Shown here piece by piece: positions 40,128-41,147 of a stretch of 64,000 nucleotides of DNA (the stretch's first letter is position 1; the number at the start of each line of letters is the position of its first letter). The notes below the pieces were generated by a model. That model made no database searches. It saw nothing but the letters and a program-made list of their open reading frames with translations, and was not told the DNA's origin. The DNA comes from Coriobacteriaceae bacterium EMTCatB1. Its GTDB lineage: Bacteria > Actinomycetota > Coriobacteriia > Anaerosomatales > Anaerosomataceae. Position numbers and translations under genes: made by a program. Where the stretch lies: NCBI GenBank assembly GCA_001950395.1, contig BDLO01000001.1, forward strand, positions 1,401,979-1,465,978, written 5' to 3'.

Positions 40128-41018
40128 ATGTCGTACACGTCGTTTGCAGACCTGCTGGCCGCTGCCCGGCGGCACGGTTCGCTCTCACGGGCGGCGATCG
40201 ACCTGGAATGCGAGGAGACGGGAGCCGACGCCGCAGGTGTCCTCGCACGCCTCTCAGAGGCGCTCTCGGTCATGGAGGAGGCGGTCGAGCGCGGGCTTCG
40301 TGAGGAGCTGCGCTCTCGCTCGGGGCTGGTCGGCGGTTTCGGCCGCGCGCTCGCGGGCGCTCGTCCGCGTCTGACAGACGATGCCTTCGTCGGCGCGCTT
40401 GCGCGCGCGCTCGCCGGCGCGGAGGTCAACGCGTGCATGGGCCGCGTCGTCGCAGCCCCGACCGGCGGAGCCTCAGGCGTCCTTCCCGCAGTGCTGATCA
40501 CCGCCGCAGAGCGTCTGGGCGCGCCGCGCGAGAGCGTGGTCGCGGCGCTCGCGACCGCCGGCGCGGTCGGCGGCGTGATCGCCGCTCGTGCCACCCTCTC
40601 TGGCGCTGCCGGCGGCTGCCAGGCCGAGACGGGCGCGGCGGCGGCGATGGCGGCGGCGGCCGCAGTCGAGCTCGCGGGTGGCACGCCCGAGCAGTCCGGA
40701 CACGCTGCCGCGTTCGCGCTGCAAGGGCTGCTGGGGCTCGCGTGCGACCCGGTCGGCGGGCTCGTGGAGGTGCCGTGCGTCGCTCGCAACGCCACCGCAG
40801 TCGCAGTCTCGCTCGCCGCTGTGGAGATGGCTCTGGGCGGGCTGGAGTTCCCGATCCCGCTCGACGAGGTCATCGACGCGATGGGCCAGGTCGGGCGGAG
40901 CCTGCCGCCGTCCCTCCGCGAGACCGCGCTCGGAGGTCTGGCCGCCACGCCCACCGCGCGTTCGCTTGCATCGCGGCTCGAGAGCGGGTATCGTCCCGAG
41001 CGTGACGAAGGGGAGTAG
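40128..41018 (+). CDS. sdaAA: L-serine dehydratase, iron-sulfur alpha subunit
   Basis: A 296-residue Fe-S subunit. Cluster cysteines are visible in NACMGRVVAAPTGGASG, GGCQAETGAA and LACDPVGGLVEVPC. GGGGAGG precedes the ATG. The final codons and the TAG stop coincide with GGGGAGTAG, the first conserved element of the downstream riboswitch, and a promoter lies inside the last ~17 codons. The pathway feeds serine to pyruvate, a common energy route in anaerobes. Confidence 0.94.
   Translation: MSYTSFADLLAAARRHGSLSRAAIDLECEETGADAAGVLARLSEALSVMEEAVERGLREELRSRSGLVGGFGRALAGARPRLTDDAFVGALARALAGAEVNACMGRVVAAPTGGASGVLPAVLITAAERLGAPRESVVAALATAGAVGGVIAARATLSGAAGGCQAETGAAAAMAAAAAVELAGGTPEQSGHAAAFALQGLLGLACDPVGGLVEVPCVARNATAVAVSLAAVEMALGGLEFPIPLDEVIDAMGQVGRSLPPSLRETALGGLAATPTARSLASRLESGYRPERDEGE
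40966..40994 (+). promoter_or_regulatory. Internal promoter for the riboswitch and P-type ATPase
   Basis: -35 TTGCAT (40966-40971), 17 bp spacer, -10 TATCGT (40989-40994), inside the sdaAA coding region. The predicted start (~41001) is directly before the P1 helix of the riboswitch. Confidence 0.65.
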
Positions 41019-41127
41019 CGCCCTCGCCCAGGCGAGGGAGGCAGGCCGACATTCCCGGGCTACGGCCCCGGCCCTGCCGAAGCGGCACGCGACGCAAGAC
41101 CTTCGGCGGTTGCGCCGGAGGTCTTTT
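41002..41127 (+). promoter_or_regulatory. yybP-ykoY-like (Mn2+) riboswitch with terminator
   Basis: The region holds the hallmarks of the yybP-ykoY class: GGGGAGTAGC (41010-41019) and GCAAGACC (41094-41101). P1 pairs CGAAGG (41006-41011) with CCTTCG (41100-41105). P2 is ccctcgc-ccag-gcgaggg (41021-41038). A third arm pairs GGCAGG with CCTGCC. The 3' strand of P1 is also part of a terminator stem (41098-41120s) followed by T5CT3, so metal binding would favour P1 and read-through. This class senses Mn2+ in known cases and commonly precedes P-type ATPases and TerC/MntP exporters. Confidence 0.78.
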
Positions 41128-41129
41128 TC
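41098..41129 (+). terminator. Intrinsic terminator (riboswitch expression platform)
   Basis: gaccttcggc pairs with gccggaggtc (one G-T pair, loop ggttgc), followed by TTTTTCTTT. Lies 20 nt before the ATPase start. Confidence 0.8.
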
Positions 41130-41147
41130 TTTGACGAGGAGGAACGC

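Follow-up and report, generated by a model that had tools for sequence, protein, structure and literature searches.

The question raised by this locus is whether the last codons of sdaAA, the gene for the alpha subunit of L-serine dehydratase, also carry the promoter and the 5' edge of a metal-sensing riboswitch that controls the next gene. The window, meaning the whole 64,000-nucleotide (64 kb) stretch of Coriobacteriaceae bacterium EMTCatB1 DNA that was analyzed, contains the sda gene pair, an RNA element, an intrinsic terminator, and a P-type ATPase gene, in that order. The RNA element is very probably a Mn2+-responsive yybP-ykoY riboswitch that controls the Ca2+/Mn2+-type P-type ATPase through transcription termination, with its promoter inside sdaAA. 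The features of the locus are listed in Table 1.

Table 1. Coordinates of the features of the sdaAA-ATPase junction within the window
Feature	Start	End	Strand	Basis
sdaAB, L-serine dehydratase (ammonia-lyase) beta subunit	39441	40112	+	TIGR00719, 212 bits (cut-off 161)
sdaAA, L-serine dehydratase alpha subunit	40128	41018	+	TIGR00718, 265.8 bits (cut-off 243.2)
-35 element TTGCAT (Leu codon CTT plus Ala)	40966	40971	+	TTG in 4 of 4 species of the genus
-10 element TATCGT (codons TAT CGT)	40989	40994	+	identical in 4 of 4 species; 17 nt past the -35 element
Predicted transcription start	40999	41003	+	placed from the promoter position
yybP-ykoY (Mn2+) aptamer, predicted	41007	41104	+	model R2, 47.3 bits, E 1.6e-10
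P1 (P1.1) 5' strand GAAGG, partner 41100-41104	41007	41011	+	minimum-energy fold, aptamer alone
L1 box GGGGAGUAGC	41010	41019	+	sequence; same in G001-G003
P1.2 5' strand GCG, partner CGC 41093-41095	41018	41020	+	fold
P2 hairpin	41021	41038	+	fold
P3 hairpin with internal loop L3 (CGACA, 41047-41051)	41040	41078	+	fold
P1 3' strand CCTTC, also in terminator 5' arm	41100	41104	+	terminator scan and fold
Intrinsic terminator: stem of 13 pairs (41096-41125) plus a T-rich tail	41096	41132	+	terminator scan
Shine-Dalgarno AGGAGG of the ATPase gene	41137	41142	+	sequence; 3' of the terminator
P2-type cation ATPase gene (PMR1/SPCA and LMCA1-like), putative regulated gene	41148	43886	+	PDB relatives and TIGR models

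The gene sdaAB is the upstream member of the sda pair. In SdaAA, the TIGR00718 match spans residues 24-287 of 296, with the last nine residues lying outside it, and the Pfam model SDH_alpha covers residues 22-272. The 3' end of sdaAA reads ...GAC GAA GGG GAG TAG. The gene downstream of the aptamer is a metal-homeostasis gene, coding for a P2-type ATPase whose transported metal is presumably Ca2+ or Mn2+. Its best PDB relatives are LMCA1 (lmo0841) and human SPCA1. It scores 750 bits with TIGR01522, below the cut-off of 798, and 520 bits with TIGR01517, above the cut-off of 507. The order sdaAA, aptamer, P-type ATPase is also present in neighboring genera (G006, G008, G010, G017, and G023). A separate arrangement is seen in genome G016, where an aptamer remnant without the GGGGAGUAG box (locus L040) lies between sdaAA and the ATPase gene, and an intact aptamer (L007) lies on a separate short contig near transposase-like ORFs.

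When folded in isolation, the aptamer forms P1, P1.2, P2, and P3, with P1 closed and L1 open. The L1 box and the L3 motif by which the class is recognized are found at 41010-41018 and 41047-41051, respectively, the former position being the sole site of GGGGAGTAG in the window. The L3 motif has a C and an A that are invariant across 59 aligned aptamers, and both are present here. We take A41051 to be the counterpart of residue A41 of the Lactococcus lactis riboswitch. In L. lactis, A41 contacts Mn2+ through N7 and gives Mn2+ selectivity (PMC9190785).

The helices can be followed in related aptamers. P1 pairs are retained in 13 or 14 of the 14 close aptamers, the P2 hairpin forms in 10 of 10 relatives despite their differing sequences, and the third P1.2 pair covaries (among 80 loci, 49 have T-A, 18 have C-G, and 8 have G-C). 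Across the 14 distinct close aptamers, standard pairs occupy 85% of pair cells, versus 31-54% when the partner strand is slid. Covariation in this set is modest, with 18 double-changed cells versus 9.1 in shuffles. The P1/P1.2, P2, and P3 architecture of the class is present, with pairing kept under sequence change.

A covariance model, R2, was built from the 59 aligned aptamers, all of other taxa, with the window and its close relatives excluded. Its structure (P1, P1.2, P3.1, and P3.2) was taken from reading the sequences. It replaced a first model, R1, in which an automatic RNAalifold structure held just 9 pairs. R2 places the aptamer at 41007-41104; the E-value is 1.6e-10 when the 64 kb window is searched and 4.4e-9 for the genome of 1.84 Mb, in which no second copy appears at E up to 0.01. 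Because the training loci were selected by two boxes that are both present in the window as well, the boxes give no independent support to this score, and the helices (P2/P3) do. R2 matches are present in 34 of the 41 genomes of the order, mostly as one per genome. One genome (G022) contains three matches, on three contigs.

The earlier note on this DNA, made from the letters alone, had assigned the element to the Mn2+-type yybP-ykoY class and had suggested the Rfam model RF00080 as a check. With cmscan, the segment scores 15 bits under RF00080, short of the gathering score of 45 and, by the note's own standard, a result against the assignment; under R2 it scores 47.3 bits. The same RF00080 model reports none of 18 control loci that contain both class boxes (from Clostridia, Acidobacteria, Armatimonadetes, Actinomycetota, and others), so its threshold is uninformative for this aptamer and the model is too narrow to decide the matter. 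The assignment itself is upheld by the R2 score, the single genome copy, and the comparative evidence, and the segment appears to be a real riboswitch whose class and type of location are both familiar. As a separate observation, RF00080 (Rfam release 15, Manganese, 177 positions, cut-off 45 bits) passes in 2 of 14 control genomes. It misses most of the sampled yybP-ykoY riboswitches, a point of importance to genome annotators who use it.

The terminator alone has a ∆G of −23.5 kcal/mol and is conserved in seven genomes (G001, G002, G003, G006, G008, G017, and G020). The CCTTC of the P1 3' strand is shared with the 5' arm of this terminator, which ends in a T-run, just as had been claimed from the letters. 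The terminator lies before the ATPase start codon. P1 and the terminator are mutually exclusive, an arrangement expected of a transcriptional ON switch. When the fold includes the terminator, the terminator state has a ∆G of −68.9 kcal/mol versus −57.0 kcal/mol with P1 enforced, energies from RNAfold that cannot represent Mn2+ or co-transcriptional folding. As the terminator state is better by 11.9 kcal/mol, the default without ligand would be OFF. The Shine-Dalgarno sequence of the ATPase gene lies outside the hairpin, which points to control by transcription.

The locus is best read as an ON switch for transcription that responds to Mn2+, resembling the riboswitches of L. lactis yoaB and Streptococcus pneumoniae mgtA. 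RNA polymerase would start among the final sdaAA codons, some 6 nt ahead of P1. At low Mn2+, CCTTC would enter the terminator hairpin and transcription would not reach the ATPase gene. Binding of Mn2+ between L1 and L3 would keep P1 closed and CCTTC sequestered; the terminator would then not form, and the efflux pump would be made. In the genus with the overlap, the sdaAA frame crosses the promoter, enters the aptamer, and ends at the L1 UAG. The terminator is the only one after sdaAA and should therefore also end the sda transcript, or fail to do so at high Mn2+, in which case a share of the sda transcripts may extend into the gene for the ATPase.

The ligand in this scheme, Mn2+, and the ON direction are what we infer from the class and the fold. 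A yybP-ykoY-fold RNA could instead be driven mainly by another input, such as Ca2+, pH, or co-transcriptional pausing, and the pump belongs to the Ca2+/Mn2+ ATPase group. In favor of such an input, the mgtA riboswitch of S. pneumoniae is reported to sense both Mn and Ca (PMC11434433), and a paper on Escherichia coli (PMC9603457) deals with a circuit through which alkalization acts on the riboswitch of mntP. Set against these is the invariant L3 A, the Mn2+-selectivity residue in L. lactis (PMC9190785), which is retained here, and control mainly by an input other than Mn2+ is judged improbable.

Two of the neighboring genera differ in the form of the junction. Downstream (3') of sdaAA in G010 (locus L027) and G023 (locus L026), the aptamer lies before a different P-type ATPase, 43-44% identical. 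Both aptamers are without a T-run terminator, and their P1 3' strand, CTTCAG(G), is able to pair with the C(C)TGGAG of the Shine-Dalgarno sequence. The pairing and the absent terminator suggest a translational platform within the same gene order.

The preferred reading, a transcriptional Mn2+ switch, also places a promoter within sdaAA. The -35/-10 pair that the earlier note had read there is present with the 17-nucleotide spacing, and the TTG, the spacing, and TATCGT are all retained in the four species of the genus. The pair (TTGCAT-17-TATCGT) matches the consensus at 7 of 12 positions, and a sigma-70 consensus scan, of low power in GC-rich DNA, reports no site, so the support for this promoter is comparative. 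All 31 aptamers taken from the remaining genera of the order have a TANNNT sequence ending 8-17 nt before GGGG; in other upstream 10-nucleotide windows, TANNNT is found in 0-2 of the same 31. The predicted start is approximately 7 nt past the -10 element and approximately 6 nt before helix P1.

Without a promoter of its own, the aptamer would be transcribed solely through read-through of sdaAB-sdaAA, and the sequence resembling a promoter would be coding sequence. The weak consensus match and the empty scan are what such a case would give, but TANNNT is at the same position in the 31 loci of other genera, most of which do not adjoin sdaAA. The rare codons CTT, TAT, and CGT are also fixed in all four species of the genus, with none alike in the sdaAA body. 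Taken with the promoter comparison, this makes the absence of an internal promoter improbable. At another locus (L175 in G007, 1490-1503), the -10 element TAGACT overlaps the end of an upstream gene, which we take to be DUF188-like, with the stop codon 11 nt before the aptamer.

Positions 41010-41018 are the sdaAA codons GGG GAG TAG, with the stop codon at 41016-41018. The first conserved element of the riboswitch is at the same time the last two codons and the stop of sdaAA, as had been read from the letters. In each of the four species sequenced from the genus (G000-G003), which as members of one genus are not independent, the gene ends at the aptamer UAG. In the neighboring genera, the sdaAA stop lies 15, 44, 48, 50, and 52 nt before the aptamer (G006, G008, G010, G017, and G023, respectively). 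In G006 the frame is the same, and the stop TAG lies inside the -10 element TAGCGT; the overlapping genus has TAT at this site. In a tree of SdaAA, the four overlapping species form a fully supported group, and the tree does not resolve which genus is nearest to them.

The genome-wide sample contains 79 other loci, a few of them clipped by the contig start, and among these no convincing coding sequence ending at the aptamer UAG was found. The eight long ORFs examined that end at this UAG have no Pfam match, and all but L095 (GC3 0.84) have a low third-position GC. Within the order, upstream genes terminate before the aptamer. Other ORFs that end at the UAG in the order, a part of which were compared with Pfam, have a non-coding-like base composition, and two of these were inspected and rejected. 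No report of a yybP-ykoY element overlapping an upstream stop codon was found in the part of the open-access literature that was searched. On these comparisons, the overlap appears to be unusual and is conserved within one genus. Its origin was possibly simple and neutral. Since L1 always has a UAG, it would catch any upstream frame that, its own stop lost, reads on into the aptamer in phase with this UAG.

A single gene junction shows how the two-box pattern can be matched by chance. At L008 (G023, position 1501, minus strand), hisC ends in GGGGAG TAG and is followed by hisB. This junction was rejected as an aptamer, having no R2 match, and is a useful negative control. That 41007-41104 is likewise a chance resemblance, made of a Shine-Dalgarno-like GGGGAG, a gene-ending TAG, and an ordinary sda terminator with no ligand-sensing RNA, is barely credible, for although RF00080 falls below its gathering score and the hisC/hisB junction proves that GGGGAG-TAG does arise at gene ends, R2 separates the two sites, the helices P1, P1.2, P2, and P3 and the L3 motif are all present and vary with pairing kept, and the aptamer is conserved ahead of a metal pump.

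The claim that the coding sequence and the regulatory RNA are under joint selection was addressed with codon frequencies counted on the genes of the window. The tail of sdaAA contains rare codons in the promoter (CTT, 6.7% of Leu; TAT, 13% of Tyr; and CGT, 11% of Arg) and one in P1 (GAA, 12% of Glu). Considering residues identical in the four species, an identical rare codon is found at 4 of 9 tail residues versus 0 of 203 in the sdaAA body (Fisher p = 1.5e-6, from a test with nine tail codons and indicative because the four species share ancestry). Both hexamer cores arise in 0.8% of random synonymous recodings of the tail, a likewise indicative value. The part of the claim in which the promoter and RNA fix rare sdaAA codons is borne out, and the reverse is not. 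Between the promoter elements, the residues of the tail change freely, the last nine residues are beyond the TIGR00718 match, and the tail is absent or different in neighboring genera. Joint selection is thus half right, as the constraint appears mostly one-sided, with the regulatory element constraining a dispensable SdaAA protein tail. The locus shows that a riboswitch and its promoter are able to constrain synonymous sites of an upstream gene.

It is also a clean, conserved case in which an invariant riboswitch sequence supplies the gene before it with a stop codon. On read-through transcripts, a ribosome that ends translation at 41016-41018 would lie over L1 and the P1 5' strand. Because ribosomes at the L1 UAG would sit on these segments, translation of sdaAA on such a transcript could block Mn2+ docking and favor the terminator. 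The riboswitch would then be a serine-catabolism-coupled, Mn2+-gated terminator between the genes. This coupling is a speculative proposal that we consider unlikely to hold. The locus is a natural system for asking what effect a terminating ribosome has on aptamer docking.

Several known systems can be compared with this locus. The S. pneumoniae mgtA (formerly caxP) riboswitch is of the same family and is a 5' Mn/Ca-sensing yybP-ykoY element that likewise precedes an ATPase efflux pump (PMC11434433). The two differ in host phylum. The present junction has its own overlap with the gene before it, and the mgtA riboswitch is not known to have one.

The L. lactis yoaB riboswitch is alike in its aptamer boxes and in a P1.1 3' strand shared with an intrinsic terminator (PMC11087558, PMC9190785). 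It is a Mn2+ ON switch that acts by antitermination (PMC11087558, PMC9190785), in which Mn2+ stabilizes P1.1 and transcription passes (PMC11087558), and the same logic probably applies here. Unlike in yoaB, the upstream coding sequence here contains both the promoter and the 5' edge of the aptamer and takes its stop codon from the L1 UAG. The sdaAA-linked aptamers of G006, G008, G010, G017, and G023 share the gene order and the promoter placement, but in these sdaAA ends before the aptamer, without overlap. The B12 riboswitches of Mycobacterium tuberculosis with translated uORFs are alike in having an ORF translated within the riboswitch leader (PMC11260477). Those are short leader ORFs that act on the downstream gene, whereas here a complete enzyme gene lies upstream and only its end enters the riboswitch.
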